From: Trueperaceae bacterium
Lineage (GTDB): Bacteria; Deinococcota; Deinococci; Deinococcales; Trueperaceae
NCBI GenBank assembly: GCA_020431825.1
Contig: JAGQHN010000020.1
Location: forward strand, 1-37,311
DNA: 37,311 nt
Direction of reading: 5' to 3'
Shown here: piece by piece, positions 3,233-22,473 of the stretch
How the letters are laid out: every line of letters begins with the position of its first letter
How positions within the stretch are numbered: position 1 is the first letter of the stretch
Program-made: the position numbers and the translations under genes
The notes under the pieces: model-generated
Told to the model about the DNA's origin: nothing
Seen by the model: only the letters and a program-made list of their open reading frames with translations
Database searches by the model: none

Positions 3233-3241
3233 GGAGCCCCA

Positions 3242-4744: not shown

Positions 4745-5273
4745 TTGCCATTCTTAACTAAGAGCCTGCCCTCAAAAGCTTACTGGAATATTAGAAGCTA
4801 ACATTGCAGCCCTCTACAGGGTAAATTTTCCTTTTACACGCTTAGGTCTGGAGTTTAGGTCTGGAGTTGTTTCCAAGATTGAGAGTTATTCCTATTCCCC
4901 AAACAAAAGCCAGATAACTTTTTGGTTAGCCCTCAACAAAACAAATCTTAGACAAGTTCGAAGCATAGATGATAGTATTGAACGACCAATCATTTGTGGG
5001 GGCATAGAAAATCAAATCTGGTGACATAAGTCTAGCAGATGATTAAGGTGAAGTTGTTTAGACCAGGAACTTTCAAAGTTCTTTAGAGTGTTTGGTTTTA
5101 GAAGACGAGAGGTCTGGTTTAGGGAGTTACATTGAAGCTTATAGCTCGTTAGCGGGCTATCTTGGTCAAAGAAAGGCCACAATCCCAGTAAAGGTTCAAA
5201 ACGCATTCGCGTAGAAAAGGAGGAACAGAGCACGATTCATTAAGGACCCAAGTAATCTTTAAGGAGTGTGATA
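4745..5273. other. Intergenic region of about 530 bp upstream of an ABC importer operon
   Basis: No convincing gene is seen on either strand. The region holds a 13-base tandem duplication (4842-4867). It also holds an 8-base-pair hairpin with a TTAG loop at 5141-5160 (ATAGCTCG/CGGGCTAT, one G-T pair). A weak candidate promoter is TAGACA at 4949 followed after 18 bases by TAGTAT at 4973. An AAGGAG ribosome-binding site sits at 5261-5266. A promoter and possibly a structured leader for the downstream importer are expected here, but none of the individual elements is strong. Confidence 0.5.
4842..4867. repeat. 13-bp perfect tandem duplication
   Basis: The unit TTAGGTCTGGAGT occurs twice in direct succession without a mismatch, in the gap between the second fucosidase and the importer operon. 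The core AGGTCTGG recurs once more near 5110. Its function is unknown; it resembles the other small intergenic duplications in this window. Confidence 0.9.
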
Positions 5274-6839: not shown

Positions 6840-6856
6840 AAAAGGTGACCTAGTAG

Positions 6857-7804
6857 ATGTGGAGCTACATTTTACGCCGGGTACTACAGGCGCTCGTCTT
6901 TATCTTCCTGATATCGGTGCTCATTTTTAGCATGATTCATATCGTGCCCGGAGACCCGGTGCTAACGATTTTAGGAGATGAAGGAGCTTCACAGGAGAAA
7001 ATACAGGCACTAAGAACTGCCCTTAAACTGGACCGGCCCTTGCCGGTTCAGTTTTTTGACTGGATTGGCGCGGTAGTAAGAGGTGATTTGGGCGAGTCGC
7101 TGATTAGTGGCAGAAGCATTACGCCAGATATTTTGACGCGCCTACCGCGAACCTTTGAACTTATTTTCCTGGCCATTATTCTCTCACTGCTGGTTGGTAT
7201 ACCGCTGGGTATTTTGGCGGCAGTGCGCCGCAATCACGCTTTGGACTGGCTCATTTCACTGTCAGCCATGCTGGGCTTATCAACCCCGGTGTTTGTAACA
7301 GGAACCTTATTGACTTTGCTCTTTAGTTTGCGCTTGCAGTGGTTTCCCTCGACTGGCTATGTCTCATTTCAAGAAGACCCGCTGGCCCATTTGCAGAGGC
7401 TCATTTTGCCAAGCATAAGTCTGGCGACAACGACCAGCGCGATCGTTATGCGCATGATGAGAAGCTCAGTTTTAGAAGTGATTTCTCTAGATTATATTCG
7501 TACGTCCAGAGCCAAAGGGCTAAACCAGGCAGTAACCCTTTATAAACATGTTTTGCGCAATGCGGTTATTCCTGTCGTTGCCATTATTGGGGTTCAGGTG
7601 AGCACACTCATCGGCGGCACGGTGCTTATTGAGTACATTTTTAACTGGCCTGGTCTGAGTTCTATGCTCATTAAAGCAATAAGTCAACGCGACTACCCAA
7701 CGGTGCAGGGAGTGGTGCTCTTTATCTCGAGCCTGGTTATTTTTATCAACCTGCTGGTTGATCTTAGTTACGGAATGCTTGATCCAAGGGTCAGATACAC
7801 ATGA
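6857..7804 (+). CDS. ABC importer permease, DppB type
   Basis: A 315-residue inner-membrane permease with the features of the DppB/OppB family: N-terminal 'ILRRVLQALVFIFLISVLIF' membrane segment, an early periplasmic 'HIVPGDP' motif, about six membrane segments in total, and the cytoplasmic coupling (EAA) loop 'SRAKGLNQAVTLYKHVLRNA' that contacts the ATPase. It starts 17 bases after the binding-protein stop, with AAAGGTGA upstream of the ATG. Its stop overlaps the next start as ATGA, so the two permeases are translationally coupled and probably form a heterodimeric channel. Confidence 0.93.
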   Translation: MWSYILRRVLQALVFIFLISVLIFSMIHIVPGDPVLTILGDEGASQEKIQALRTALKLDRPLPVQFFDWIGAVVRGDLGESLISGRSITPDILTRLPRTFELIFLAIILSLLVGIPLGILAAVRRNHALDWLISLSAMLGLSTPVFVTGTLLTLLFSLRLQWFPSTGYVSFQEDPLAHLQRLILPSISLATTTSAIVMRMMRSSVLEVISLDYIRTSRAKGLNQAVTLYKHVLRNAVIPVVAIIGVQVSTLIGGTVLIEYIFNWPGLSSMLIKAISQRDYPTVQGVVLFISSLVIFINLLVDLSYGMLDPRVRYT

Positions 7805-8613
7805 AGCTTCTAAAAAACCCAAGAATAAGTCTTTCCCTTATCATCATCGTGGCGTCTTTAGTCACCGGGATTTTTGCCCCCCTTATTGCACCTTATGATC
7901 CTTTAAAACAGGACTTTATCAGCAATCTTGGGTCACCTTCCCAGGAGCATCTTTTAGGTACCGATGAGTTTGGACGAGACGTTTTATCGCGCCTGATTTT
8001 CGGCGCAAGGGTATCTCTGCGCGTTGCTTTTGTTTCGGTTGCCCTGGCTATGATTCTGGGCACCTTTCTGGGCCTTACCGGCGGTTATCTTGGTGGCTGG
8101 TGGGAACTCATTGCCATGCGCGGCAGTGATGTTTTGCTGAGCCTTCCGCCCATTTTGCTGGCCATGGCGGCAGTTGCCTTTTTAGGTAGCAGCCTGCTTA
8201 ACCTAACCCTGATTATTGGGGTGCTTTATACGCCGCGTTTTGCTCGAGTCGTGCATGCAGCCGTTGTTAGAGAAAAAAATCAGGATTATATCGAGTCGCA
8301 GCGAGCTTTAGGGGCTGGGATACCTCGTATTTTGCTACAGGGTATTTTGCCAAATATTCTGGCGCCGATTATGGTACAGGCTTCTTTAAGCCTGGGCTTT
8401 GCCATTTTGCTCGAGGCCGGACTTAGTTTCCTGGGTTTGGGTGCGCCGCCACCTCATCCCTCCTGGGGTAACATGATTTCTACGGCCAGAGGCTATATGC
8501 GCCAGGCCCCCTATCTGGTTATTTCTCCATCCATTACCATAGCGCTCATTGTGCTTGCCTTTAATACCTTAGGAGACGGATTAAGAGACAGTCTTGATCC
8601 GCGTTTAAAATAG
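7801..8613 (+). CDS. ABC importer permease, DppC type
   Basis: A 270-residue inner-membrane permease of the DppC/OppC family. It shows the N-terminal membrane segment, the 'LGTDEFGRDVLSRLIFGARVSL' family signature, the coupling loop 'SQRALGAGIPRILLQGILPN', and the C-terminal 'AGLSFLGLGAPPPHPSWG' segment. Its ATG overlaps the preceding stop by four bases. It would pair with the DppB-type subunit to form the channel. No ATP-binding subunit is encoded next to it, so an ATPase encoded elsewhere must energise it (inference). Confidence 0.93.
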   Translation: MKLLKNPRISLSLIIIVASLVTGIFAPLIAPYDPLKQDFISNLGSPSQEHLLGTDEFGRDVLSRLIFGARVSLRVAFVSVALAMILGTFLGLTGGYLGGWWELIAMRGSDVLLSLPPILLAMAAVAFLGSSLLNLTLIIGVLYTPRFARVVHAAVVREKNQDYIESQRALGAGIPRILLQGILPNILAPIMVQASLSLGFAILLEAGLSFLGLGAPPPHPSWGNMISTARGYMRQAPYLVISPSITIALIVLAFNTLGDGLRDSLDPRLK

Positions 8614-8621
8614 GAGTTTTT

Positions 8622-9356
8622 ATGAAAACCATGCTTGAATCCCCCTGGGTAGATTTACGTGACCAATTAAGCAAAACCGATCTCGCTATTATTCCAGTTG
8701 GTGCCTCAGAAGTTTATGGACCTCATATCCCTAATGGGACCGATGGTCTGGCGGCCATGGCCCTGGCCAAAAAAGCCGCCGAACAGGTTCCTGCGCTGAT
8801 TACACCCCTGATACCTGTGGGCTACTCACAAAGGCTTATGGATTTTCCAGGTACCTTAAGCGTGCCTTCGGCGGCGCTTAAAGCCTATCTCGAGGGCATT
8901 GTGGCAAGCCTGCGGACGCATGGCATCAGGCGAGTCATGTTTATTAATGGACATGCTGGCAATGTTCCGGCCATTACCGAATTACTTCAGGAACTAAGAG
9001 ACAAGTACAGCATGCGCGGCGCTCAAATTGACGTTTGGCGCTTTATTCAACCTCTATCTAAAGATGTTCTGGATAGTCAGTCGTATCACTTTGGTCATGC
9101 AGGAGAAGCCATGACTTCGGTGATGTTGCACTTGCACCCGGAACTGATGATGATGGATAGAGCGGTTAAGAACTTGCCAGAGCCTAAGCAGTTTCCAGAT
9201 GTTATCACCGTTGAGCCTTATGGCAAAATGAGCGATTCGGGCATTTTAGGTGATGCAACTCTTGGTACCGCCGAGAAGGGTAAACTCATTTTTGAAAGAA
9301 GTGTGGCCCGAATCGTTGAGTTTTTAAAGAGCGATGAATTTACTACCTTAAGTTAA
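8622..9356 (+). CDS. Creatininase-family amidohydrolase
   Basis: A 244-residue member of the creatininase superfamily, normal length. Metal ligands known for the family can be aligned by eye: Glu30 and His35 in 'GASEVYGPHIPNGTD', Asp41, His111 in 'INGHAGN' and Glu162 in 'GHAGEAMTS'. The family hydrolyses cyclic or linear amides (creatinine, some lactams and formamides); related members act in inositol breakdown and mycofactocin maturation. The substrate here is unknown. It has no signal peptide. It is the last gene of the importer operon, eight bases after the permease with an AGGAG ribosome-binding site, so its substrate is probably something the importer brings in (inference). Confidence 0.88.
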   Translation: MKTMLESPWVDLRDQLSKTDLAIIPVGASEVYGPHIPNGTDGLAAMALAKKAAEQVPALITPLIPVGYSQRLMDFPGTLSVPSAALKAYLEGIVASLRTHGIRRVMFINGHAGNVPAITELLQELRDKYSMRGAQIDVWRFIQPLSKDVLDSQSYHFGHAGEAMTSVMLHLHPELMMMDRAVKNLPEPKQFPDVITVEPYGKMSDSGILGDATLGTAEKGKLIFERSVARIVEFLKSDEFTTLS

Positions 9357-9399
9357 ACATTTTCTACGTTAAGTTAAAACAGCTCTTAACAAGCAAATC

Positions 9400-10380
9400 C
9401 TAGTACCCAAGCTCGAGGTCAACCTTGTAGGGTATGGTTTCGCCGCTGGCATACATATTAAGTATTTGCGCGAGAAAGACCATACGGCTATCGTCATCTT
9501 TACCCAGCCAGCCCGCCTTATGGGGGCTCATCACCACATTGGAGAGTTCATGAAAGGGATAGCTGGACGGCTGCGTTGAGGTGCGAGCCTCGAGGTCTTT
9601 TGGATAGCTGTACCAGACATCCAGCCCTGCTGCAGCGAGTTTGCCACCTTTTAGAGCGTTGTAGAGGGCTTTCTCATTGACGATAGAACCACGACCAACA
9701 TTTACCAGAATTGCTCCTTGGGGTAAGAGCTCGAGCTCAGTTTCAGTAATCAGGTTTTGGGTTTCGGGGGTTTCTGGCAGGGCGATCAGCAGAACTTCTG
9801 CCTGAGCCAAAGCCGTTTTTAGCTCGCCAAAATCAGCCACTCGAGCAATGGGATCATGCTTGTCCTCGGCGGTTAGATTGCGCCTTACCCCTAAGACTTT
9901 CATGCCGAGGGCGTGGCAAACCGCGGCAGCGTGTCTGCCAATGCGGCCATAGCCCAAAATGACCACCGTTTTACCGTGCAGCATGAGCTGAGGTTGTTCG
10001 CCGTAGCGCAGTGACCAGTCGCCCTGCCTCAAATCCGCATCGGCTTTAATAGTAAATTTGGCACTTGCCAGCATAAGGGCCAGTGCGGTTTCGGCAGTAG
10101 CAATTGAATTATAGGGGGTATTAAAAACAGCTACCTCCGGGTACTGTCGCATAAGCTCCTGCGTTGCCATGGGTGGTCCGGCAAAAGGAATAATTAGCGC
10201 CTTTAACTTGGGGCTTGCTTCTACCAGCTCCTTATGCGGAAAAGCTGCAATAAGCACCTCATAGTCAGCATGTTCAGGAATCTCACTGCCATAGGTCAAA
10301 CTGATATTGGCATTAAGACGGGTTTTTAGAAACTCGGTTGAGCCTTGCTGAGTTTCCTGATAGTGAAAGACTTTTAGCAT
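9400..10380 (-). CDS. D-2-hydroxyacid dehydrogenase-family protein
   Basis: A 326-residue protein with the C-terminal NAD-binding domain of D-isomer-specific 2-hydroxyacid dehydrogenases. The cofactor loop is 'ILGYGRIGRHA' (Gly143-Gly148). The catalytic Arg230 lies in 'NVGRGSIV' and His287 in 'SPHKAGW'. The position that usually carries the catalytic Glu ('DVFxxEP') reads 'DVWYSYP', with Tyr259 there, so either the mechanism differs or another residue substitutes. The family reduces 2-keto acids or oxidises 2-hydroxy acids and some sugar acids. It is transcribed toward the creatininase gene, with only 43 bases between the two stops. A 31-base palindrome lies 15 bases before its start. It follows the gamma-glutamyltransferase gene on the same strand. 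Confidence 0.87.
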   Translation of the reverse strand: MLKVFHYQETQQGSTEFLKTRLNANISLTYGSEIPEHADYEVLIAAFPHKELVEASPKLKALIIPFAGPPMATQELMRQYPEVAVFNTPYNSIATAETALALMLASAKFTIKADADLRQGDWSLRYGEQPQLMLHGKTVVILGYGRIGRHAAAVCHALGMKVLGVRRNLTAEDKHDPIARVADFGELKTALAQAEVLLIALPETPETQNLITETELELLPQGAILVNVGRGSIVNEKALYNALKGGKLAAAGLDVWYSYPKDLEARTSTQPSSYPFHELSNVVMSPHKAGWLGKDDDSRMVFLAQILNMYASGETIPYKVDLELGY

Positions 10381-10395
10381 TTAATACCTATTCCG

Positions 10396-10426
10396 TTTAA
10401 TCATGCGACTCAGTCCCATGATTAAA
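10396..10426 (-). promoter_or_regulatory. 31-bp near-perfect palindrome before the hydroxyacid dehydrogenase gene
   Basis: TTTAATCATG (10396-10405) and CATGATTAAA (10417-10426) are exact inverted copies. The space between them contains a second nested symmetry, GACT-C-AGTC, leaving only one C/C mismatch pair. The element lies just upstream of the start on the minus strand and has no T-run on its downstream side. An operator for a dimeric regulator, or a leader hairpin, is therefore more likely than a terminator. Confidence 0.6.
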
Positions 10427-10528
10427 TGCGAGCGGAGCGCGAGAAGAATCAGCTTCAGTAGAGTTTTTCCGTATAGGATATTTCTGGAACGGGGATAAAT
10501 GCAGTTTATTACGGTGCGTAAAAAATAA

Positions 10529-12133
10529 TTATTGTTCATTGGTATAGCCATACTGTCTAACCACCTTTTTCGCCTTATCAATTAGCAGACAGCTCCCTCC
10601 TGGACCTCTTGGGTCAGACCCAGCCTGCCAGCTATCCTTATGTTTGCGAAGGGTTTGAGCGATGCCATTAGCCCCAAAAGGGCCAAGCTCATGCCCCAGC
10701 ATTTCTAGGTCTTTAGCCGTTTGCCCAGCGGACTCGAGATAACTGTGCTTGCCGTGATTGTGAATCCTGGGCAGGGCCACAGCCAGCTGAGCGCTCAGGT
10801 CAAAATCAATTTGATTAAGCAGGGTTTGTAAGGTAGCGCTGACAATTTTGGGACCACCAGCAGCGCCAGCGGCAATCACGTCACCCGTTTCTTTATGAAG
10901 GGCGATTAGGGGACTCTGGCTACTGGCGGGCTCTTTGCCACCCTCGAGCAAATTAAAATTGCCCTTATAATGAATGCCCTGTGTGGTTGTCTCTCCAGCC
11001 CTTAGGCTAAAATCACCAATGGAATCATTCAAGATAATCCCCGTTGCCAGATCGACCACCCCTGAGCCAAAATGACTGCGAATGGTCTGGGTTTGGGAGA
11101 CAACATTTCCCTCATCATCGGCAACACAGAAATGACTGGTGCACGACTCAGAACCTGTGTCTGCATCTAAGAGGGCACCTATTTGCCTGCTTTCTAGGGC
11201 TTTTGCCAGTTCGCGGGCAACATCATCACTTGATAAAACCTGACTGATTTCGGTTGGCCCCAGCTCCGCCCGTTTGATATAGGTGGTCTTAATAACGTTA
11301 GCGACCAAATCCAGATAATCTTTGCTATTGTGCCCCAGGTCGCGTACTGGAAAAGCCTTCAGGATTTTTAAGGCCAGCTGGGTTTGCAGCGCTCCTATAG
11401 TTGGCAAACCTGGTGCTAAAATGTGCCAGTCACGGTAGGCAAAGCTGTAAAGCTCTGTTACCTGCGCTTTATACTGGGCCAAATCGTCGAGGCTTAAAAC
11501 GCCACCAAGTTTGTCAAGTGTCGCAATCATTGCCTGGGCAAGCTCACCCTGGTACAGCGACCGGGTTCCTTTGCCCAGTACCTCGAGCGTCTCAGCCAGG
11601 TTTTCCTGTCTATACGTCTCACCTTCAACCAAAGGATGCTCAAAAACACTACCTTTACCAAAGTTTGCTATTTTGGCTCGAGTTTCTTCATTGCCATACA
11701 CATTTGCCAGCATGAAATCTACCTTAAGCTTGCTTCTGGCGAGTTCTGCCACCCTATTACACAGGTCTGACCAGGGCAATTTTCCACGGCCTGTGTGTAA
11801 TTGCTCGAGTCCAGCAATCAAACTGGGAATAGTAACAGCTAAAGGGCCTGACTGGACTTTGTTATAGTTGACCTGTCCCTCCTCGTAAAACATTTCAGGT
11901 GAGATGTTTTTGGGTGCAGGTCCTCTGGCATTTATATGATGACCTTGGTCCCCGGTATAAAAGGTGATGTTGCAGCCGCCTCCAATGCCTGAGTGATAAG
12001 GCTGAGTAACCCCAATTGCCAGAGAAACAGCAACAGCGGCGTCAAAGGCATTACCACCGGCAAAAAAGATCTCGCTACCTATTTGACTTGCTTGAAAATG
12101 TGGAGCCGCAACCGCGGCTGAGACAGTTGCCAT
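10529..12133 (-). CDS. Gamma-glutamyltransferase family protein
   Basis: A 534-residue member of the gamma-glutamyltranspeptidase (Ntn hydrolase) family. The N-terminal part has 'GGNAFDAAVAVSLAIGVTQP' and 'SGIGGGCNITFY', both typical. The likely self-cleavage site and nucleophile is Thr332 in 'SCTSHFCVAD', equivalent to the Thr before TH in known enzymes, with 'NGIAQTLRK' and 'DPRGPGGS' near the end. The family removes or transfers gamma-glutamyl groups from glutathione and similar amides. Unlike many members it has no signal peptide, so it would work in the cytoplasm, consistent with processing imported gamma-glutamyl compounds (inference). The start is the first ATG giving the full domain; the ribosome-binding site is weak. 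It is transcribed away from the IclR gene. Confidence 0.9.
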   Translation of the reverse strand: MATVSAAVAAPHFQASQIGSEIFFAGGNAFDAAVAVSLAIGVTQPYHSGIGGGCNITFYTGDQGHHINARGPAPKNISPEMFYEEGQVNYNKVQSGPLAVTIPSLIAGLEQLHTGRGKLPWSDLCNRVAELARSKLKVDFMLANVYGNEETRAKIANFGKGSVFEHPLVEGETYRQENLAETLEVLGKGTRSLYQGELAQAMIATLDKLGGVLSLDDLAQYKAQVTELYSFAYRDWHILAPGLPTIGALQTQLALKILKAFPVRDLGHNSKDYLDLVANVIKTTYIKRAELGPTEISQVLSSDDVARELAKALESRQIGALLDADTGSESCTSHFCVADDEGNVVSQTQTIRSHFGSGVVDLATGIILNDSIGDFSLRAGETTTQGIHYKGNFNLLEGGKEPASSQSPLIALHKETGDVIAAGAAGGPKIVSATLQTLLNQIDFDLSAQLAVALPRIHNHGKHSYLESAGQTAKDLEMLGHELGPFGANGIAQTLRKHKDSWQAGSDPRGPGGSCLLIDKAKKVVRQYGYTNEQ

Positions 12134-12282
12134 CCCTAAGCCTAACCTGTAGCAGGGGTTTGCTTGGTTAACTGAGAACCACCGGGTGCTCGCAAGCTGC
12201 TTGGTTTTGCTAAGTCACTGCATAATTAAGCCCATGAACAAAACGAAATCATTAAGCTATGACGCGCCCTAAGAGGAGAATA

Positions 12283-12316
12283 CTTGGCCTTAAAATACGC
12301 TTGGCCTTAAAAATAC
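12283..12316. repeat. 17-bp tandem duplication
   Basis: CTTGGCCTTAAAATACG is followed at once by a near-identical copy, CTTGGCCTTAAAAATAC. The two share the first 13 bases and differ by a one-base slip in the A-run. It lies in the divergent promoter region between the gamma-glutamyltransferase and IclR genes, about 195 bases before the IclR -35 box. Confidence 0.85.
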
Positions 12317-12508
12317 AGCTGGAAAATAAAATTAAGAAGTTAGGGAAAGTATTTCTCGAAGGGGCATTTTCTCCAGGCGAATGCTATATACACAATCATC
12401 TTGGCATTCGCACAAATAAAAAAGTGCAGTAGGAGCTATTCTTTCCGCTTTTCCTTGTTTATAAAGGATTAAATTTTCTAAGCTGTCTTTGTTTCCTCTT
12501 GAAGTATT

Positions 12509-12538
12509 TTGAAACTTTGTTTTACTATGTAATATAGT
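12509..12538 (+). promoter_or_regulatory. Promoter of the IclR gene, probably giving a leaderless mRNA
   Basis: TTGAAA (12509-12514), an 18-base spacer and TATAGT (12533-12538) form a good vegetative promoter. The -10 box ends six bases before the ATG at 12545, which is the position expected for the first transcribed base. No Shine-Dalgarno sequence is visible. In Deinococcus, a TANNNT box at this distance from a start codon is characteristic of leaderless genes. Confidence 0.65.
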
Positions 12539-12544
12539 ATGACC

Positions 12545-13360
12545 ATGCAAAACGAAGAGCTAACTTTTTTTGAGATTCAAAGTGAGGACAAACAACCTTA
12601 TGTCATCACCTCGGCTCTTCGCACCTTACAGGTTCTCAGGGCATTTTCAAAACCTCCTCATAAATTTAGTTTGAGTGAATTAACCGCTCGTACAGGTATA
12701 GAAAAAAATCAACTTTACAGATCGCTAAAAACACTCGAGCAAGCCGAATTTCTGGCATTTGAGAGTGATGGACGGTTTGCACTTACTGCCGTGATTCATG
12801 AATTAACAGCTGCTACGGTACAGCCCTTAGAAAAATCTCTGGTAGAGATTGCTCAGCCCTATCTGGATGAGCTGGTTCATAAAACCTCTGAAAGCGTTAA
12901 TCTGTTTATCCGCACGGGTGATCTGGCAGTTTGCGTTGACCGTAGAGATAGCCCCCAGCCTGTCAAGCTAAGCTCGCCACTCGGCATGACGGTTCCGCTC
13001 CATGCAGGGGCAGTGCCAAAAGCTATGCTGGCTTTTATCGAAGATGATTTAAGACAAACGATTCTGAAAAACTTACAAACCTTGCCAGCCTATACTGAAA
13101 GAACCCTACTAAATGCCAAAGATCTGGCCCTTGAATTGGCGCGCATAAGAAAGCGCGGTTACTCCATCAGTGATGAAGACTATGACGCATCTGCCAGAGG
13201 GGTCGGCGCGCCTATCTTTAACAGTCAGAAAGACGTCGTTGCGGGGATAAGTGTTGGTGGACCTTCCTTTCGCGTTGATGATGCAACGCTTGAAAGCTTT
13301 GGTCAAATCATTACTCAAACTGCTCAGGCGATCTCGAGACGCCTGGGTTATTTGAACTAA
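12545..13360 (+). CDS. IclR-family transcriptional regulator
   Basis: About 271 residues with the two IclR domains: an N-terminal winged helix-turn-helix ('FSLSELTARTGIEKNQLYRSLKTLEQAEFL') and a C-terminal effector-binding GAF-like domain ('SVNLFIRTGDLAVCVDRRDS', 'LHAGAVPKAMLAF', 'RGVGAPIFN'). IclR proteins control catabolic operons and respond to small acids or related metabolites. I chose the second ATG (12545) because it fits a leaderless transcript from the TATAGT box; an in-frame ATG at 12539 abuts that box. It is the first gene of the second importer operon, 18 bases before the binding protein, and is the likely regulator of that operon and possibly of the divergent gamma-glutamyltransferase gene. 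Confidence 0.93.
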   Translation: MQNEELTFFEIQSEDKQPYVITSALRTLQVLRAFSKPPHKFSLSELTARTGIEKNQLYRSLKTLEQAEFLAFESDGRFALTAVIHELTAATVQPLEKSLVEIAQPYLDELVHKTSESVNLFIRTGDLAVCVDRRDSPQPVKLSSPLGMTVPLHAGAVPKAMLAFIEDDLRQTILKNLQTLPAYTERTLLNAKDLALELARIRKRGYSISDEDYDASARGVGAPIFNSQKDVVAGISVGGPSFRVDDATLESFGQIITQTAQAISRRLGYLN

Positions 13361-13378
13361 GCCCTAAGGAGGCAAGGT

Positions 13379-14956
13379 ATGAGAAAAGCAGGATGGTTAA
13401 GTTTGCTGGTGGCGCTGGTGCTGCCGTTTATGGCACTCGCGCAAGACTATAATCCAGACGCCGTATTGACATTTGCAACAAATGCTGATCCCACCCTTAA
13501 TCCCTGGACGCCAGGAGCGGTTATTGAGTCAAACCTGATCAATACTATTTTGTTTGATCAGTTGACGCGCTATAGCCCCGAAGACCTTAGCCCGGTTGCT
13601 GGGCTCGCAACGAGCTGGGAAGCAGCTGATGACGCCATGTCCTGGACATTTCAGCTTCGGGAAGGTGTCAAGTGGTCAGATGGCGAAGCCTTTGATGCTG
13701 AGGATGTCGCCTTCACCTTTAATGATGTCGTCTTGGTAGATGAGCTGGGTGCGCAGAGTGCCACGCAATTTTCACAGGTAGAGTCGGTTGAGATAGTTGA
13801 CCCACTTACCGTTCGCTTTGTACTAAATAGCCCTTTTTCCGCCCTACCTTATTATCTGGCGGCTTTTTCAGGTATGTTGCCAGAGCATGTTTTAGGTGGC
13901 GAGGAAAACCCCCTAACTGTTGCTTCATTTAATAAACAAAACCCGGTTTCTACCGGCCCCTATAAAGTTGCAGAGTTTGTGCCAGGTTCTTATGTTCGAC
14001 TGGTGCCCAATGAAAATTACTGGGGTGAAGCGCCCAAGTTAGCCGGAATTGTCTTCCGCATTATTCCAGATGCTAATACTCAGGTAGCTCAGTTGCTTGC
14101 GGGTCAGCTCGATCTGGTTACACGCTTAAACCCGAACCTTTTAGCCGGGGTTGAGCAAGCTCCCAACCTTGATGTTTTGCGCCAAAGTCAGAATCTCTAC
14201 TACTGGGTAGTCTTAAATCAGCAAGATGAGCGCTTTACCGATGCCAGGGTGCGCCAGGCCTTACTTATGGCCTTAGATCGTCCTGCAATGATTGATGCCA
14301 TCTTAAAAGGTTATGGCACCGTAGCTACCGGGCCGATTGCTCCGCTTCTTGGTGCTATTTATAGTTCAGATGTTGCTCAGTACCCCTATGACCCAGAAGG
14401 TGCCAAGGCACTATTAGCCGAGGCTGGCTGGACACCGGGTGCCGATGGCATTATGGAAAAAGAGGGTCAGCGTTTAGAAATCTCTATGCCTACAGGACAA
14501 TTTGGTGAACTGGTACCTGCTACCTTACTGGTGCAGCAGTACTGGGAAGCCATTGGTGTCAAAGCAAATGTAGACGTTATTGAGTGGAATGCCTATATCC
14601 AGCAAGTGGTTGTAAAACGGGATTATGAAGGCACCCTAGCCTGGTGGAGCCAACCGCCAACGCCAGATGTTACCCCTTATTATTCCTGTGAGGCCGTTTC
14701 AACTGGCAATAATATTCCTAATTACTGTAGTGAAGAGCTTGATGCGATTATGACTGAGGGCAGACGGGCGCTAACACCTGAAGATCAGGCAGAAGTTTAT
14801 GGCAGAATGCAGGCTTATTTGGCTGATGAATTGCCCTATCTTTACCTATGGTACCCAGACATCATCAGTGTAAAAAACAGCAAGCTCATGGGCTTTGCTG
14901 ACATCAACGCTTCAACTGCCTTTCAATTTGCTGCTGACTGGTACGTCGCTCCCTAA
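13379..14956 (+). CDS. ABC importer solute-binding protein, family 5 (peptide type)
   Basis: A 525-residue exported binding protein of the SBP_bac_5 family. The signal peptide runs through 'LPFMALAQ' before 'DYNPD'. Family marks include 'SWTFQLREGVKWSDGEAF', 'DVAFTFND', 'STGPYKV', 'NENYWG' and 'QALLMALDRPAMI'. An AAGGAGG ribosome-binding site sits six bases before the ATG, the strongest in the operon, which suits the high level of binding protein an importer needs. It is clearly diverged from the binding protein at 5274, so the two importers probably take different ligands. The two Cys residues in 'SCEAVSTGNNIPNYCSEE' could form a disulphide. It contains no CTCGAG, the longest such gap among the genes here. 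Confidence 0.93.
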   Translation: MRKAGWLSLLVALVLPFMALAQDYNPDAVLTFATNADPTLNPWTPGAVIESNLINTILFDQLTRYSPEDLSPVAGLATSWEAADDAMSWTFQLREGVKWSDGEAFDAEDVAFTFNDVVLVDELGAQSATQFSQVESVEIVDPLTVRFVLNSPFSALPYYLAAFSGMLPEHVLGGEENPLTVASFNKQNPVSTGPYKVAEFVPGSYVRLVPNENYWGEAPKLAGIVFRIIPDANTQVAQLLAGQLDLVTRLNPNLLAGVEQAPNLDVLRQSQNLYYWVVLNQQDERFTDARVRQALLMALDRPAMIDAILKGYGTVATGPIAPLLGAIYSSDVAQYPYDPEGAKALLAEAGWTPGADGIMEKEGQRLEISMPTGQFGELVPATLLVQQYWEAIGVKANVDVIEWNAYIQQVVVKRDYEGTLAWWSQPPTPDVTPYYSCEAVSTGNNIPNYCSEELDAIMTEGRRALTPEDQAEVYGRMQAYLADELPYLYLWYPDIISVKNSKLMGFADINASTAFQFAADWYVAP

Positions 14957-14970
14957 GTCTTTAGTCTAAC

Positions 14971-14998
14971 TGCATGCAGGCGATTCAGCCTGCATGCA
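14971..14998 (+). promoter_or_regulatory. Intercistronic hairpin between binding-protein and permease genes
   Basis: TGCATGCAGGC (14971-14981) and GCCTGCATGCA (14988-14998) are exact inverted copies around a six-base loop. The hairpin lies 15 bases after the binding-protein stop and has no T-run, so it is not a classical terminator. Such hairpins commonly protect upstream mRNA from 3' exonucleases and help keep binding protein in excess over permease (known from other importer operons; inferred here). Confidence 0.7.
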
Positions 14999-15008
14999 AA
15001 AGGTGCCT

Positions 15009-15959
15009 ATGCTCGTTTTTATAAGCCGAAGATTGGTGCAGGGGCTGGTTGTCCTTTTTATGATTTCTGCCTTTACCTTTTTTCTGGTCAATCTAGCACC
15101 AGGTGGGCCATCTTCCCTCATTGATTTTCAAAGTACTGCAGAGCAGCGGGAAGCCAGGCTCAAGCAATACGGCTTGGACAAACCTGTACATGTACGTTAT
15201 GTTCTCTGGTTGGGTGACGCTTTAACGGGTGATCTGGGAAAAAGTATTAATCAGGGACTTCCAGTGGCGTCACTACTAAGGCAACGGTTTGCCACCACGT
15301 TGCAGCTGGCTCTTGCGGCTCTGTTTTTGGCCAGTTTTTTTGGTGTTTTGCTTGGCGTACTGGCTGCCCTTTACCGAAACCGCTGGCCTGACCATCTGGT
15401 TAGTACGCTCACCACTTTAGGCATGTCGGTGCCAAATTTCTGGCTTGGTATTGTAGCGATTATCTTTTTTTCGGTGCAGCTTCGCTGGCTTCCCGCTTCG
15501 GGAAACTTCACCATAGGAGCTAAGTTTTCGCTAGCAGACCGCCTGGCTCATCTTATTTTACCAGCGGGAGTTCTGGCTTTTAGCCTCATGCCTAATATTG
15601 TAAGGGTTACGCGCTCGGCCTTACTCGAGCTCAGGGCTGCTGATTTTGTAAGAACGGCCCGGGCGAAAGGACTGAGGGAGCGTATGGTTCTCTGGAAGCA
15701 CACCTTTAAAAATGCGCTGGTACCCGTGATCGCCATTTTGGGTCTGGTGACTACCGTACTGTTTTCTGGAAGTGTCGTTATTGAGAGTGTTTTTGGTTGG
15801 GCGGGCCTTGGTCGTCTGGCAATTGAGGCAGCGAATGGCCGGGATTACCCGGTGATTTTAGGCGTTACCATGCTGGTTGGTGTCATTGTGGTGCTGGTTA
15901 ATCTGAGTATTGACTTGCTCTACGCTGTGGTTGACCCCAGAATAAGGCGGGAAAGCTGA
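15009..15959 (+). CDS. ABC importer permease, DppB type
   Basis: A 316-residue inner-membrane permease with the N-terminal membrane segment after 'FISRRLVQG', the 'NLAPGGP' periplasmic motif, about six membrane segments and the coupling loop 'ARAKGLRERMVLWKHTFKNA'. I chose the ATG at 15009 because AAAGGTG lies just before it and the product begins 'MLVFISRRL', typical of the family. An in-frame ATG at 14994 would sit inside the stem of the intercistronic hairpin. The stop overlaps the next start by one base (TGATG). Confidence 0.92.
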   Translation: MLVFISRRLVQGLVVLFMISAFTFFLVNLAPGGPSSLIDFQSTAEQREARLKQYGLDKPVHVRYVLWLGDALTGDLGKSINQGLPVASLLRQRFATTLQLALAALFLASFFGVLLGVLAALYRNRWPDHLVSTLTTLGMSVPNFWLGIVAIIFFSVQLRWLPASGNFTIGAKFSLADRLAHLILPAGVLAFSLMPNIVRVTRSALLELRAADFVRTARAKGLRERMVLWKHTFKNALVPVIAILGLVTTVLFSGSVVIESVFGWAGLGRLAIEAANGRDYPVILGVTMLVGVIVVLVNLSIDLLYAVVDPRIRRES

Positions 15960-16816
15960 TGGTGCTAAGTACGCCTAAGGCCAAAAAACAAAGCTCGAGG
16001 CTTATGCGTAAGTTCCAGCGAAATCCGCTGGACTTTATCCCTCTGGTTGTGCTTATTCTGCTGATTTTGCTGGTCGTGATTGGTCCCTGGCTTTACCCTT
16101 ATGAACCTCAAAAAGCCAATGCGCTGGCAACCCTCGCCAACCCCAGTGCCGAGCACTGGTTAGGCACCGATGAATTAGGCCGCGACGTCTTTGCGCGGAT
16201 TCTTTCGGGTGGTCGCGTTTCACTGGCAGTGGGACTTTTATCGATGCTGGTAGGTCTTTTGCTGGGCACGCTCATTGGCGGTCTGGCGGGGTACTTTGGG
16301 GGCACGCTCGAGTCCTTACTGATGCGCCTCGTGGATATGTTTATGGCGATTCCCTCGTTTTTTCTCATTCTGGTGATTGTGACCAGTTTTGGGAATCACC
16401 CGGCAGTGGTTATTTTGACGGTAGGGCTGGCTTTCTGGGCACAAATGGCGAGAGTCGTCTACGCCGAATTTGCCAAGTTCCGTAAAAGCGAATTTGTTGA
16501 AGCGTCGCAGGCCCTGGGTGGTTCGCATCTCAGAGTCATGGTTCGTCATATTTTTCCGCAAGTTTTACCGCAGGCAATTGTGCTGGCGAGTCTTGGCGTT
16601 GGCTGGGCGATTTTAACCGAAGCTGCCTTAAGTTATCTGGGTTTGGGCATTCAGCCGCCGCTCGCATCGTGGGGCAATATGCTCCAAAATGCCCAGCAGT
16701 ATCTGTTTCTTAAACCTACACTGGCCATATGGCCGGGCTTATTTATTGCCATTACCGTACTTATGTTTAATTTGCTGGGCAACACTTTGCGAGACGTGTT
16801 TGATCCCCGCAGCTAA
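15959..16816 (+). CDS. ABC importer permease, DppC type
   Basis: A 285-residue inner-membrane permease. A basic cytoplasmic N-terminus ('KAKKQSSRLMRKFQRNPLDF') precedes the first membrane segment. Family signatures are 'LGTDELGRDVFARILSGGRVSL', the coupling loop 'SQALGGSHLRVMVRHIFPQVL' and the C-terminal 'AALSYLGLGIQPPLASWGNML'. It is translationally coupled to the preceding permease. The operon continues with hydrolases, and no ATP-binding component is present. Confidence 0.93.
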   Translation: MVLSTPKAKKQSSRLMRKFQRNPLDFIPLVVLILLILLVVIGPWLYPYEPQKANALATLANPSAEHWLGTDELGRDVFARILSGGRVSLAVGLLSMLVGLLLGTLIGGLAGYFGGTLESLLMRLVDMFMAIPSFFLILVIVTSFGNHPAVVILTVGLAFWAQMARVVYAEFAKFRKSEFVEASQALGGSHLRVMVRHIFPQVLPQAIVLASLGVGWAILTEAALSYLGLGIQPPLASWGNMLQNAQQYLFLKPTLAIWPGLFIAITVLMFNLLGNTLRDVFDPRS

Positions 16817-16828: not shown

Positions 16829-18031
16829 ATGCAAAAAAAGAATTATAAGGGTTATACCTCTTTTGAGTACCTCGAGCCAGGCAAAGATTACAAGGCTTAT
16901 GAACTGGTTGAGGAGTTAAACCGAGTACCAAGCACCCAGGTAGAAGTCAGTAGCGAACAAGAGGCAAGGGTTAAAGCGATTTTTGAAAATAACATCATTA
17001 TCTCGCTGCACGACCACTGTTTTGTGGCTCCCAGAGACCTCTCGAACTTTCTCGAGTTTCGCCGCTGGGGCCGTGACTGGACTGGTTATAAGGGATTAGC
17101 CGTAAGCGGACTGGACTGCGTTTTTGACAATATGATGGACGGCACTGCCATGATTACCTCGCGTGGCGGCTGGAAGTGGGACGATGTCATTTTTGATATG
17201 GGTATGCGTCTCAGTGACATTGCCCATCAGGATATGGTCAAGTTAGCGCTAAAAACCCAGGATATACGCGACGCTAAAGCCAATGGGCAAATTGCCTTTG
17301 TGATTTCGCTCGAGGGTGCCGCCATGATTGAAAATGAACTTGACCGCATTGATGTGCTCTACGGTCTTGGTACGCGCTGCCTGGGGATCGCGTACAGTGA
17401 AGGAAATGCGCTGGGAGCAGGCCTGAAAGAGCCCCGTGATGGAGGTCTCACGGTTTTTGGTCGTAAGGCAGTTGAGCGTATGAATAAACTGGGCATGGCG
17501 ATAGACGTGTCGCATTCAGGTGATCAAACCTCTATGGACACCATAGAACTCAGTAAAGACCCCATCTTTATAACCCATGCGGGTGCGCGCAGCCTCTGGG
17601 ACACGCCCAGACTTAAGCCCGATCATATTATTAAAGCCTGCGCCGAACGTGGTGGGGTGATTGGTATAGAAGCGGCGCCGCATACCACCATCAGTCAGAA
17701 AAATCCGCGCCACAGCATCGAATCCTTTATGGAACATTTTGAGTACTGTGTTGATCTGGTGGGTATAGACCATGTGACCTTTGGGCCAGATGTGCTTTTT
17801 GGTGATCATGTGGGCTTGCACACTGCTTTGACAGAGGCGCTAAGTCTGAGTGCCTCTAAAGGTAAAAATCCCTTCCCTAAAGTCGAATGGGTAGATGGCT
17901 TAGAAAGCCCGGCGGAAGCCTTTCCCAATATTGTGCGCTGGCTGGTTAAGCATAACTATAGTGATGATGAAATAACCAAGGTCGTAGGGGCAAACACCCT
18001 GCGGGTTTTAGACCAAGTCTGGGCAAAGTAA
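16829..18031 (+). CDS. Membrane-dipeptidase-like protein (peptidase M19 family)
   Basis: A 400-residue member of the renal-dipeptidase (M19) family, TIM-barrel metallopeptidases with two zinc ions that split dipeptides, including D-residue-containing ones. Candidate metal ligands are His61 and His63 in 'SLHDHCF', Glu162 in 'VISLEGA', His229 in 'DVSHSGD' and His250 in 'ITHAGARS'. Known members have His-x-Asp at the first site, whereas this protein has His-x-His, so the metal site or substrate range may be altered. There is no signal peptide or anchor, so despite the family name it is cytoplasmic. An AGGAG-type site precedes the ATG, 12 bases after the permease stop. Its stop overlaps the next start (TAATG), so the next protein is made in step with it. 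Confidence 0.9.
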   Translation: MQKKNYKGYTSFEYLEPGKDYKAYELVEELNRVPSTQVEVSSEQEARVKAIFENNIIISLHDHCFVAPRDLSNFLEFRRWGRDWTGYKGLAVSGLDCVFDNMMDGTAMITSRGGWKWDDVIFDMGMRLSDIAHQDMVKLALKTQDIRDAKANGQIAFVISLEGAAMIENELDRIDVLYGLGTRCLGIAYSEGNALGAGLKEPRDGGLTVFGRKAVERMNKLGMAIDVSHSGDQTSMDTIELSKDPIFITHAGARSLWDTPRLKPDHIIKACAERGGVIGIEAAPHTTISQKNPRHSIESFMEHFEYCVDLVGIDHVTFGPDVLFGDHVGLHTALTEALSLSASKGKNPFPKVEWVDGLESPAEAFPNIVRWLVKHNYSDDEITKVVGANTLRVLDQVWAK

Positions 18032-19443
18032 TGGTCGTTCAGGACTGGCAGCGGCTTTGTGATGATCTGGTGCCAGACCTTCAAGGTTTGCAGCTTGGGG
18101 TTTATGCCAGTGGCGGGTCCCCCTATCATTATCTGGCTTTAGCGGCCCTTTGGGGAGCTGAAGTGAGACCTATTCGCGCTGAAGACGTCGCTTCGGGTAG
18201 CCTGGCATCTCTGGATGTGCTTATCTTTCCGGGCGGGGGTTTTAAGGCCATGGAAGGGATGCTCGAGCCCCTTGGTACCCAAGGGGCCCAGAAGGTACGT
18301 GACTGGGTTGCTAAAGGCGGCATGTATTTAGGCTCATGTGCCGGGTCTTTTTTACCCGCCGAGCTAGGGGATGGCTACTGGCAGGCTCACGAAGAAGCCA
18401 GAAATCTGCATATGGTTAAAGCAAAACTGGCTAACAGTAGCGATAGTATCTTTGAAGGTTTAAGTTCGCCCGGGGTTGGCACATTGCAGGTCAGACTGAG
18501 TAAGTCTGATCACTGGCTTGCTCATGGCTTGCCAGAAAGATTTGAAATCGTTCATTATAATGGTCCACTTTTTGCGCCCAGTACCGAAGGTATCGCCGAG
18601 CCCTATGCGGTAGCAACAGGGGTTATGCAGGCGGTAAGCATGACAGAAACATTTACCCCGGCTGAAGGATTTATGGAGGCAAAGCCCGAGACCACCTTGC
18701 TGGAGCGCTGTATAGCCCAGGGCGCTTTTAATGGACTCTCGAGCCCATACGGGGAAGGTCAGGTGGTGCTCTTTGGCTCTCATCCGGAATTTGGCTTTGA
18801 TAGTTTGCAACTTGGCTGGGGAGAGGCGGTAAAACTGGTCGCTAATGCCCTGACTTTTCAAGCCTCTAAGGGCAAAAGGTTTAATCGCAGAAAATCAGAG
18901 ACCTTAAGCTCTAAGGAAACCGCAGAATTGTTTATGGGTTGCTCACAAACCTTGACTCAGTGTGCTGACTTGTTTGATGACTTGCAAAGTACCGATGCTG
19001 ATGACTGGCTGAAGGGACAGGTGCCCTCCTTTTTGGGGCGTAGCGCTAAAGAGTTGTGGCTCGAGGCCAGTCAGGAAGCCGCTAACGTTGCGTTACTTAG
19101 CTCAAAATTGGCGCTTGACCTGAGTAAGCATGAAGCTGTGCTCGAGTCCTTCTGGTTAGATGATGAGCCAAGAGGCAATCAGGATGTAGGGTTTATGGGC
19201 CTAAAACAACTTTCTGCTGAAATCCTTGAGCAATTGCAGCTTGCCCTAAAGCAGCTCAAAACAGAGCCCATTACCCTAAATCATGCTTATGACGGCTTTG
19301 GCGTTCATCCTTATCAGATCGCTGTGAGCTCCTATTTGAGCGCTGCGGGGCTTTGTGCGGCTGCCCATCTTTTAACCGTTACGCTTGCCAAACTCAGTGG
19401 CAATGACTCCCTTATTGACTACCGCTATTTACTTCGGACTTAA
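18031..19443 (+). CDS. Glutamine-amidotransferase-like hydrolase (BPL_N type) with helical C-terminal domain
   Basis: A 470-residue protein I cannot place in a known pathway. Residues 1 to about 270 look like a class I glutamine-amidotransferase fold, closest by eye to the BPL_N (biotin-protein-ligase N-terminal-like) group: 'GVYASGGSPYHY', 'FPGGGFKAMEGML', a nucleophile elbow 'YLGSCAGSFL' with Cys103, and 'GSHPEF' with His251 and Glu253. The full Cys-His-Glu triad is therefore present. Residues about 290 to 470 are leucine- and alanine-rich and predicted helical, with no motif I recognise. It is coupled to the M19 dipeptidase by a one-base overlap and followed by an iminopeptidase-like gene. 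An amide- or peptide-hydrolysing role in the same pathway is likely, but the substrate is unknown. Without a partner synthase domain, glutamine amidotransfer is less likely. Confidence 0.75.
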   Translation: MVVQDWQRLCDDLVPDLQGLQLGVYASGGSPYHYLALAALWGAEVRPIRAEDVASGSLASLDVLIFPGGGFKAMEGMLEPLGTQGAQKVRDWVAKGGMYLGSCAGSFLPAELGDGYWQAHEEARNLHMVKAKLANSSDSIFEGLSSPGVGTLQVRLSKSDHWLAHGLPERFEIVHYNGPLFAPSTEGIAEPYAVATGVMQAVSMTETFTPAEGFMEAKPETTLLERCIAQGAFNGLSSPYGEGQVVLFGSHPEFGFDSLQLGWGEAVKLVANALTFQASKGKRFNRRKSETLSSKETAELFMGCSQTLTQCADLFDDLQSTDADDWLKGQVPSFLGRSAKELWLEASQEAANVALLSSKLALDLSKHEAVLESFWLDDEPRGNQDVGFMGLKQLSAEILEQLQLALKQLKTEPITLNHAYDGFGVHPYQIAVSSYLSAAGLCAAAHLLTVTLAKLSGNDSLIDYRYLLRT

Positions 19444-19452: not shown

Positions 19453-20289
19453 GTGTTTATAAAGATAAACGGCGCTGACTTGTTCGTCGATGTTCAGGGT
19501 CAGGGCAAACCTATTATTGCCCATCATGGAGGGCCGGGCATGGGCTCCCATGCCAATGATAAGAGGGCTTTTGCCCCGCTAAGTGATACCTATCAGGTGA
19601 TTAGTTTTGATGCCAGAGGCTCTGGTCGCTCAGCGCAAGTTCCCCCTTATACCCATGAGCAGTGGGTGGCTGATCTTGACGCGCTAAGGGAGCACTTTGG
19701 CTTTGAGCAGTTTATTATGACAGGGGGGTCTTATGGTGGCTATATTGCGCTCGAGTACACCCTGGCGCATCCTGATCGAGTCAGCCACCTGATTTTGCGA
19801 GACACAGCGGCCTCTCACAACTATGAAGCGCAGGCAAAAGCTACTGCCCTGTCCAGAGCCAAAGAGTTTCCCGGCATAAATGAAACCGATCTGAACCGCA
19901 TTTTTGCTGGCAAAATGGAGAGCGACCAGGATTTTAAAGAGGTTTTTGCTACCATTGCCCCGCTTTACAATGCCAACTATGATCCAGAAAAGACAGCAAG
20001 CTGGATAGATACCATCATGTTTCATGCCGATACCCATAACTACGCCTTTTCGCAAAATATACCCCAGTTTGACCTGACCAGGCGTTTAGCTGAAATAAAG
20101 GTGCCCACGCTTATTGTAGTAGGCCGCCATGACTGGATTACACCGCTGGCGGCTTCAGAAGAACTTGCCGCCGGGATTCCAGGTGCTGAACTGGTTATTT
20201 TTGAAAACTCGGGTCACTCGCCGCAGCAAGAAGAACATGAGCGTTTTATAGAGGTCGTTCGAGCGTTTTTAGCGAAACATTCGCAGTAA
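19453..20289 (+). CDS. Alpha/beta hydrolase, proline-iminopeptidase-like
   Basis: A 278-residue alpha/beta hydrolase of the peptidase S33 group, which removes N-terminal proline or similar residues from peptides. Marks are the oxyanion 'HHGGPGMGSH', the nucleophile elbow 'TGGSYGGYIAL' with Ser93, the acid in 'VVGRHDWITP' and the catalytic His in 'ENSGHSPQQE'. The GTG start is supported by AAGGAG shortly upstream; the ATG three bases earlier is out of frame and closes at once. No signal peptide, so cytoplasmic. It is nine bases after the amidotransferase-like gene and ends the second importer operon, completing a peptide-breakdown set. Esterase or other C-C/C-O hydrolase activity cannot be excluded. 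Confidence 0.88.
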   Translation: MFIKINGADLFVDVQGQGKPIIAHHGGPGMGSHANDKRAFAPLSDTYQVISFDARGSGRSAQVPPYTHEQWVADLDALREHFGFEQFIMTGGSYGGYIALEYTLAHPDRVSHLILRDTAASHNYEAQAKATALSRAKEFPGINETDLNRIFAGKMESDQDFKEVFATIAPLYNANYDPEKTASWIDTIMFHADTHNYAFSQNIPQFDLTRRLAEIKVPTLIVVGRHDWITPLAASEELAAGIPGAELVIFENSGHSPQQEEHERFIEVVRAFLAKHSQ

Positions 20290-20393: not shown

Positions 20394-21395
20394 ATGGCAA
20401 TAGAACATAGACGTTTAGGAAAACATGGCGTACTGGTAAGTAATCTCTGTCTTGGAACTATGAATTTTGGCTGGCACACTTCTGAGGAAGAAAGCTTTGC
20501 CATTATGGACCGCGCCCTCGAGCTTGGCATTAACTTTTTTGATACTGCCGATGTGTATGGCGGTCAGGGCGGTCAGCAAGGTGATACGGAAATCATTTTG
20601 GGTAACTGGTTTGCGCTTGGCGAAGGCAGAAGAGACGCGGTAGTTCTTGCCAGCAAGGTCTACAATCCCGTTAATCGCAAGGAAAATCGTGCTGAACCTA
20701 ATACCGACAACCGAAATCTGTCGGCTATGAAAATCAAGAAACACTGTGAGGGTAGTTTAAAGCGCCTGCAAACAGACTGGATTGATCTTTATCAGATGCA
20801 TCATATCGACCGTGATTGTCCCTGGGACGAAACCTGGCAAGCTTTTGATAGCCTGGTGAAGCAGGGAAAAATCGTGTATGTGGGCTCGAGCAACTTTGCT
20901 GGCTGGGATATTGCCACGGCATGTCAGGAAGCCTCAAAAAGAAATATGATGGGTCTGGTTAGCGAACAGAGCATTTATCATCTAAATAACCGCATGGTGG
21001 AGCTGGAAGTTAACCCTGCCTGCAGGCACTATGGTTTAGGTTTAATTCCCTGGAGCCCTTTGGGGGGCGGCCTTTTAGGAGGCGCGCTGGGCAAAATTGA
21101 AGGCGGACGCCGCATGAGTGACAACTTCTTAAAACAGGTGGAAGCTAACCGGGATAAGCTCGAGCGCTACGAAGCCCTTTGTAAAGACCTCGGGGAAGAA
21201 CCCGCTACCGTTGCTCTGGCTTGGCTCCTTCATAACCCGGTTGTGACTGCGCCCATTATCGGCCCAAGAACTTTAGAACAACTTGAAAGCGCGGTAAGAG
21301 CCACCGAAATTAGCCTGGATGAGGAAGTGCTCACTAAGCTTGATGAAATATTCCCGGGCCCTGGAGGCGAAGCGCCAAAAGCTTATGCCTGGTAA
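20394..21395 (+). CDS. Aldo/keto reductase
   Basis: A 333-residue aldo/keto reductase. Catalytic tetrad: Asp50 and Tyr55 ('FFDTADVYGG'), Lys88 ('LASKVYN') and His136 ('LYQMHHID'). The C-terminal cofactor segment contains 'APIIGPRTLEQLES'. A TTAGGAGTG ribosome-binding site precedes the ATG. It is the closest relative in this window of the reductase at 696; both have 'FAIMD', 'ELGINFFDTA', 'WFALGEGRR' and end 'AYAW', suggesting an old duplication now about 20 kb apart. A third, more distant reductase follows 70 bases later. Substrate unknown. Confidence 0.93.
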   Translation: MAIEHRRLGKHGVLVSNLCLGTMNFGWHTSEEESFAIMDRALELGINFFDTADVYGGQGGQQGDTEIILGNWFALGEGRRDAVVLASKVYNPVNRKENRAEPNTDNRNLSAMKIKKHCEGSLKRLQTDWIDLYQMHHIDRDCPWDETWQAFDSLVKQGKIVYVGSSNFAGWDIATACQEASKRNMMGLVSEQSIYHLNNRMVELEVNPACRHYGLGLIPWSPLGGGLLGGALGKIEGGRRMSDNFLKQVEANRDKLERYEALCKDLGEEPATVALAWLLHNPVVTAPIIGPRTLEQLESAVRATEISLDEEVLTKLDEIFPGPGGEAPKAYAW

Positions 21396-21465
21396 GCCTT
21401 GGCCCTCATCTCAATAAAGGTCCATCGCAAGACCAGTAGCCACCTGATAAGAAAAAGGAGAAGTT

Positions 21466-22473
21466 ATGGATTATCGTTCCTTAGGCCGTACCGGCATAAA
21501 AGTTAGCCCGCTGTGCCTGGGTTGTATGAATTTTGGTGGAAAAACGACCCCCGAAGATTCTTATGCCATTATTGATAAGGCGATAGATGCTGGCATCAAT
21601 TTCTTAGATACCGCCAATGTCTATAGCCGTGGACGCAGTGAAGAGATAACAGGTGAAGCGCTAAAACGTAATGGTAAACGTGATCAAATCATCTTGGCGA
21701 CCAAGGTGCATGGCGCTATGGATGATACTGACCCAAATATGCGTGGTAATACAAGACGGCATATCATTCAGCAGGTCGACGCTTCTTTAAAACGCCTGCA
21801 AACCGATTATATTGACCTCTATCAAATCCACCGTCCGCAACCCGATGTGCCCATTGATGAAACCTTGAGGGCGCTCGATGACCTGATTCGCTCAGGTAAA
21901 GTGCGCTATATTGGTACCAGCACCTTTGCTGCCTGGCAAGTCATGGAAGCTCTGATGATTGCCAAAGAGCTGGGACTGAACCGTTTTATTTGTGAACAAC
22001 CCCCTTATAACCTGCTTGACAGAAGGATTGAGCGCGAACTCTTACCTATGGCGCAGACTTACGGTATTGCAACCATTCCCTGGAGCCCCTTAGCTGGCGG
22101 GTTGTTGGCAGGTAAGTATCAAAGAGATGCTGAGCCGCCTTCAGGAAGTCGCTATGAAAATGTCAAAGCTAATGAGGTGCAGCAAAGACGCTACACCGAT
22201 CAGGCGTTTGATGTGATTGAAGGGCTCGAGGCCCTTGCCAAGAAAAAAGGCTGTAGCCTGTCTCAGTTTGCGCTTGCCTGGTGTATGCAGCAACCAGGCG
22301 TTACCAGCCCGATCATTGGTCCAAGAACCATGGAGCAGCTAGAAGACAATCTGCAAGCTCTGGAAATAACGATAACAGAAGAGGACAAACAGGAAGTAGA
22401 TGCCCTTATTCCACCTGGTCGCATGGTGTCTGCCTTTTATGAGGCCAATTTTGGCCCTCACCCGTTTCGCTAG
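21466..22473 (+). CDS. Aldo/keto reductase
   Basis: A 335-residue aldo/keto reductase. The tetrad is Asp48 and Tyr53 ('FLDTANVYSRGRSEE'), Lys80 ('LATKVHG') and His122 ('LYQIHRPQPD'). 'SPIIGPRTMEQLEDNL' forms the C-terminal cofactor-binding part. AAGGAG sits before the ATG. The 'DLYQIHRPQPDVPIDETL' and 'GTSTFAAWQ' regions place it in a subgroup different from the other two reductases here. The gene probably forms a short unit with the preceding reductase; a heptamer array and long hairpin lie downstream. Confidence 0.93.
   Translation: MDYRSLGRTGIKVSPLCLGCMNFGGKTTPEDSYAIIDKAIDAGINFLDTANVYSRGRSEEITGEALKRNGKRDQIILATKVHGAMDDTDPNMRGNTRRHIIQQVDASLKRLQTDYIDLYQIHRPQPDVPIDETLRALDDLIRSGKVRYIGTSTFAAWQVMEALMIAKELGLNRFICEQPPYNLLDRRIERELLPMAQTYGIATIPWSPLAGGLLAGKYQRDAEPPSGSRYENVKANEVQQRRYTDQAFDVIEGLEALAKKKGCSLSQFALAWCMQQPGVTSPIIGPRTMEQLEDNLQALEITITEEDKQEVDALIPPGRMVSAFYEANFGPHPFR

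Follow-up and report, generated by a model that had tools for sequence, protein, structure and literature searches.

A BPL_N-type protein with a helical C-terminal half, encoded in a peptide-uptake operon of Trueperaceae, is a probable amide or peptide hydrolase

Class I glutamine amidotransferases use a catalytic triad in which a Cys attacks the amide carbonyl, a His acts as base and acid, and a Glu orients the His. A Cys-His-Glu triad is also present in the homoserine succinyltransferases and acetyltransferase, and the PuuD-type gamma-glutamyl hydrolases (Peptidase_C26) use the class I amidotransferase fold as stand-alone catabolic amide hydrolases. The class III biotin-protein ligases, such as yeast Bpl1, carry an N-terminal BPL_N domain (PF09825). 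BPL_N domains of fungi and some animals have an intact amidotransferase triad, which comprises C89, H215 and E217 in the yeast biotin-protein ligase; the glutaminase activity of this enzyme was tested in vitro and none was observed (PMC12582158). In the literature searched, no report of hydrolysis or another activity of any BPL_N domain was found.

The window (the whole 37,311-nt stretch analysed, from a Trueperaceae bacterium) contains at 18031–19443 a gene for a 470-residue BPL_N protein with a helical C-terminal half. All coordinates of the protein and its operon are on the forward strand. The frame spans 470 codons without an internal stop, its product aligns with 29 homologues and yields a confident AlphaFold2 model, and it represents a real gene. 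Its ATG borrows the final base of the TAA stop of the preceding M19 frame, which ends at 18031, generating a one-base overlap (TAATG). The product is probably an uncharacterised enzyme that cleaves amide or peptide bonds.

The N-terminal half (approximately residues 17–280; 18079–18870) is BPL_N- and class I amidotransferase-like according to both Pfam and Foldseek. Pfam BPL_N matches residues 62–261 with an E value of 5.9e-10 and 38.9 bits, which exceeds the gathering cut-off of 24.2 bits. BPL_N also hits each of the 13 proteins in the Deinococcota alignment A1, and the cut-off is passed by five longer homologues found in other phyla. By its sequence, the protein is thus a member of the BPL_N family. 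The earlier note had regarded this half as amidotransferase-like; the class I-type triad is retained in our analysis, and the half has a named family. Relatives are publicly annotated as 'BPL-N domain-containing protein'. NCBIfam detected only a trace of PdxT in the protein (E 0.012, far under the cut-off), and the closest PDB sequence matches, the PdxT/YaaE glutaminases, are confined to the N-terminal half. Compared with the class III biotin-protein ligases, the protein shares the family by profile and the Cys-His-Glu arrangement. In contrast, it carries a helical half instead of a biotin ligase domain and is encoded in a context of peptide uptake and breakdown rather than biotinylation.

The predicted nucleophile, Cys103 (codon 18337–18339), is located within the GSCAGS motif, and His251 and Glu253, the predicted remainder of the triad (His251-Pro252-Glu253, 18781–18789), are located within FGSHPEFG. 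The three residues proposed in the earlier note were therefore correctly placed. They are invariant in 13 of 13 homologues in the first alignment and in 29 of 29 in the larger one, which indicates that their placement is not due to chance. Around them, the GSCAG and HPE motifs likewise show no variation across the 29 divergent proteins. The HYNGPLF motif (residues 175–181; 18553–18573), in which Y176-N177-G178-P179 and F181 are invariant, possibly forms a substrate-site loop, and a YYxGPV(F/Y) version of it is found in distant BPL_N proteins from Neorhizobium and Parabacteroides. N135, S146, F208, T209 and E212 are the other invariant residues of the N-terminal half among the 29 proteins.

AlphaFold2 predicted the full protein with high confidence (29-row alignment; pLDDT 90.1, pTM 0.93), and structure prediction and fold search, which the earlier note had proposed for each half, were applied to the full protein and to the C-terminal half alone. 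Foldseek ranked GMP synthase subunit A and Pdx2 highest (target TM of 0.72), with homoserine succinyltransferases and ThuA-like proteins next. Class I structures were matched with E values of 1.1e-7 (2a9v) and 1.1e-6 (2nv0), and the best fold matches of the full-length model, which bear on whether the triad residues would be brought together, are class I enzymes. The catalytic half is thus predicted to adopt the class I fold. It resembles PdxT/Pdx2 and GMP synthase subunit A in fold, nucleophile elbow and His-x-Glu triad; the window protein differs from them in its weak sequence similarity, the lack of a synthase partner and the extra helical half. Peptidase_C26 is absent from its Pfam matches, and the likeness to the PuuD-type hydrolases therefore serves only as a lead. 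MetA homoserine succinyltransferase and the ThuA-like proteins have a related flavodoxin-like amidotransferase fold, but they show approximately 10% identity in the fold alignment, lack the helical half and belong to another pathway. Because the homoserine succinyltransferases and acetyltransferase (7cbe, 2ghr and 2vdj) rank among the closest matches by fold, the protein could be an acyl- or peptidyl-transferase that passes the acyl group on the Cys to an amine or hydroxyl in a MetA-like manner, so that an imported compound is modified and not cleaved. This alternative appears unlikely, as the sequence and the best folds indicate BPL_N- and glutaminase-type domains and the neighbouring genes encode catabolic hydrolases.

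The helical C-terminal half comprises residues 280–470 (18868–19440). Four long helices (294–320, 339–365, 391–408 and 438–455) were predicted with high confidence, and the models of the full protein and of the isolated half (pLDDT 91.6, pTM 0.88) agree on them. Residues 281–470 have no match in Pfam even at E = 10, a profile of this half found no relative among PDB sequences, and no PDB fold was matched at E ≤ 0.001, the best being a designed bundle at 0.2. These results bear out the description of this half as an unfamiliar helical domain, here the last 190 or so residues. Among the 29 proteins, W343, D385, G387, G390, Y420, Y435 and A438 are invariant, and the helical half is thus under constraint rather than a loose tail. 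It is found in every complete member of the clade. The distant Neorhizobium protein WP_227705553.1, annotated as 'BPL-N domain-containing protein', aligns over the BPL_N half (hhalign probability 99.2, E 2.5e-19), and its gene is also in an ABC-transporter operon, beside a gamma-glutamyltransferase gene. However, the alignment ends before the helical half, and the C-terminal part of the Neorhizobium protein appears different. The helical half is therefore a clade-specific feature and a plausible specificity element, which most likely contributes to the substrate site. No family has been described for this domain, which is predicted with confidence, nor for the arrangement in which it is combined with the N-terminal half.

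In the window, the gene belongs to an ordered set that encodes an IclR-type regulator, a solute-binding protein, two permeases, an M19 dipeptidase, the BPL_N protein and an alpha/beta hydrolase. The IclR gene (12539–13360; IclR_C E 7.1e-39) heads the operon in a conserved position. It is followed by the gene of a peptide-type solute-binding protein (13379–14956; SBP_bac_5 E 1.7e-97) and two Opp/Dpp-type ABC permease genes (14994–16816), which match BPD_transp_1, OppC_N and Opp-family NCBIfam models. The M19 dipeptidase-family gene (16829–18031; Peptidase_M19 E 3.7e-68) shares the one-base overlap, and the alpha/beta hydrolase gene (19453–20289) on the other side encodes a proline-iminopeptidase-like protein (TIGR01250 E 1.6e-36, under the model's cut-off) and is a conserved neighbour.

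In M19 enzymes, the metal motif reads HxD. The M19 'dipeptidase' of the window (16829–18031) has LHDH at this site, with LHEH or THDH as variants, and HxH is kept in all 34 aligned relatives from Deinococcota and Actinomycetota; its metal site or its substrate may therefore differ. A second peptide-type solute-binding protein and permease set is located immediately upstream (5268–12133) with a creatininase-family gene. Next in the same region are a D-2-hydroxyacid dehydrogenase and a gamma-glutamyltranspeptidase gene on the opposite strand. An ATPase gene is absent from both transporter sets among the annotated frames of 5268–16816, which indicates that the ATPases are encoded elsewhere.

When GTDB genome contigs were searched with a profile, 30 loci were recovered, whose titles name Trueperaceae, Meiothermus, Chloroflexota, Thermomicrobiales, Actinomycetota, Dormibacterota, an alphaproteobacterium, Peptococcaceae and Fraserbacteria. 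The 29 aligned homologues span eight phylum-level groups, and two further members reside on Deinococcus plasmids. Members cluster by phylum in the tree, where a well-supported branch sets the Deinococcota on one side; homologues occur in 16 of the 111 Deinococcota genomes. A conserved N-terminal extension of approximately 95 residues is found in the members from groups other than Deinococcota, Actinomycetota and Dormibacterota (L045 7725–8000, with equivalents in L043–L049, L051–L053, L059 and L060); this extension has no match in Pfam or the PDB. The idea that the extension, in Chloroflexota and others, resembles the linkers of M14 carboxypeptidases was unsupported by the Pfam, PDB and plasmid searches. 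The BPL_N gene on a plasmid of Deinococcus sp. KNUC1210 (L065 9275–10395) is split between two annotated hypothetical proteins, and its match falls into three segments; a disrupted gene or a sequencing error is possible.

The gene neighbourhood is conserved across these groups. An M19 gene adjoins the BPL_N gene, on either side, in all 15 Deinococcota loci with a sufficiently long contig; in the sixteenth genome, G086, the locus is truncated by a contig end. These operons also encode a peptide-binding protein, permeases and the proline-iminopeptidase-like hydrolase, and Deinococcus sp. QL22 has the gene set of the window with an additional Xaa-Pro peptidase gene. Outside Deinococcota, the BPL_N gene is mostly located 3´ of solute-binding protein and permease genes; the transporter genes that precede it are of the Opp type in Chloroflexota, Actinomycetota, Dormibacterota and one alphaproteobacterium. 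Many of these loci have two genes of one further cluster, presumed to be the transporter ATPases, between the permeases and the BPL_N gene. Amidase, Peptidase_M24, racemase or amidohydrolase genes are often neighbours there: an amidase (PF01425) gene lies 3´ of the BPL_N gene in Chloroflexota, a Pseudonocardia locus has the same M19 subfamily (60% identity) with Peptidase_M24 and alpha/beta hydrolase genes, and a Fraserbacteria locus has an alpha/beta hydrolase, an Asp/Glu racemase and an amidohydrolase. There are two exceptions. The Marmoricola locus L055 lacks Opp permeases but has an M19 gene, and no transporter of the Opp type was detected at the Peptococcaceae locus L059. The genome of the window has 38 OppB-like matches, some of which are split pieces of one gene. 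The probability that a given locus is close to such a gene by chance would therefore be roughly a few per cent, which could not explain the pattern across separate phyla.

No synthase gene was found among the annotated conserved neighbours in the window, in other Deinococcota or in the other phyla, which agrees with the lack of a synthase partner described in the earlier note. This result bears on whether the protein is a true glutaminase or amidotransferase that delivers ammonia to a synthase, provided either by the helical half or by a partner that escaped detection, as its class I triad and fold would allow. Such a role is very unlikely, given the conserved neighbourhoods without a synthase gene, the helical half without a match to a synthase or nucleotide-binding fold, and a yeast homologue that is inactive on glutamine (PMC12582158). 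The protein is assigned neither to the biotin ligases nor to the true glutamine amidotransferases. The peptide and amide neighbours, the lack of a nearby synthase and the inactivity of the yeast enzyme on glutamine together make hydrolysis of a peptide-like amide, and not of free glutamine, the most likely reaction. The suggestion of a hydrolase, possibly a peptidase or amidase, was originally drawn from the one-base overlap. The conserved operon with a dipeptidase, a peptide-type transporter and an aminopeptidase-like hydrolase strengthens it well beyond that overlap, while the yeast biotin-protein ligase without glutaminase activity counts against it.

We consider it probable that the protein is a cytosolic accessory Cys-His-Glu hydrolase of an oligopeptide-type uptake and degradation operon. 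In such a pathway, a peptide or amide-capped compound would be imported via the ABC importer. Cys103, activated by His251 and Glu253, would attack the C-N amide bond to form an acyl-enzyme, from which water would release the acid. The products would serve as substrates for the M19 dipeptidase and the proline-iminopeptidase-like hydrolase, as well as for an Xaa-Pro peptidase or amidase in operons that encode one. With its invariant D385/G387/G390, Y420 and Y435, the helical half may cap or shape the pocket at the position where true amidotransferases have the synthase. The BPL_N score, the invariant triad, the confident model, the conserved operon and the lack of a nearby synthase favour a hydrolase; the optional nature of the gene, its fast evolution and the yeast biotin-protein ligase without glutaminase activity argue against one. 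More tentatively, the family could represent a new type of cysteine peptidase or amidase, in which a BPL_N fold with a substrate-capping helical domain acts on a modified or blocked peptide from dedicated Opp-type transporters, and this would explain the triad of the eukaryotic biotin-protein ligases. The bacterial family places the BPL_N domain in a biochemically narrow context, namely a regulated operon of peptide uptake and hydrolysis with a short list of candidate substrates, and this setting makes the role of the helical half testable.

Nine Deinococcota operons have the order IclR, solute-binding protein, B, C, M19 and alpha/beta hydrolase with the BPL_N gene undetected and little or no gap for one. 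The gene is therefore optional and accessory, and the pathway can run without it. Compared with its same-genus relative (L034 2345–3754), the BPL_N gene of the window is 67% identical, whereas the neighbouring genes are 92–96% identical. The dN is 0.27 for the BPL_N gene versus 0.03–0.06 for the neighbours, a difference of approximately 5–10 fold with synonymous sites near saturation. The BPL_N gene is thus under selection, albeit far looser or more variable than that on the dipeptidase gene. The optional occurrence and fast evolution, together with the inactivity of the yeast biotin-protein ligase on glutamine (PMC12582158), would also suit a non-catalytic or regulatory protein, whose fold would serve to bind either the imported compound or a partner such as the dipeptidase or transporter and whose triad is kept for folding or binding. 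We regard this as improbable: a triad and GSCAG and HPE motifs that are invariant in 29 divergent proteins are hard to explain without chemistry, and the operon already has an IclR regulator. The catalytic reading, a hydrolase with an accessory role, is preferred.

Several other proposals did not hold. Open frames of 795–927 residues in relatives had suggested a dipeptidase-BPL_N fusion; tblastn resolved them into two separate adjacent genes, and the long frames likely arose by chance. A defence or phage origin found no PADLOC or PHROGs match, and the significant viral fold matches are mostly of the amidotransferase type. A gene for the Xaa-Pro peptidase M24 is next in seven of the nine operons without the BPL_N gene; however, the idea that the two genes strictly replace each other was rejected because both are present in genomes G001, G028 and G109 and on two Deinococcus plasmids. 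Across the relatives, the M19 gene is far more conserved than the adjoining BPL_N gene. On either side of the peptide operons (696–4744 and 20394–22473) are genes for three paralogous aldo/keto reductases (39–48% identical) and two alpha-L-fucosidase-like proteins that are 25% identical to each other.
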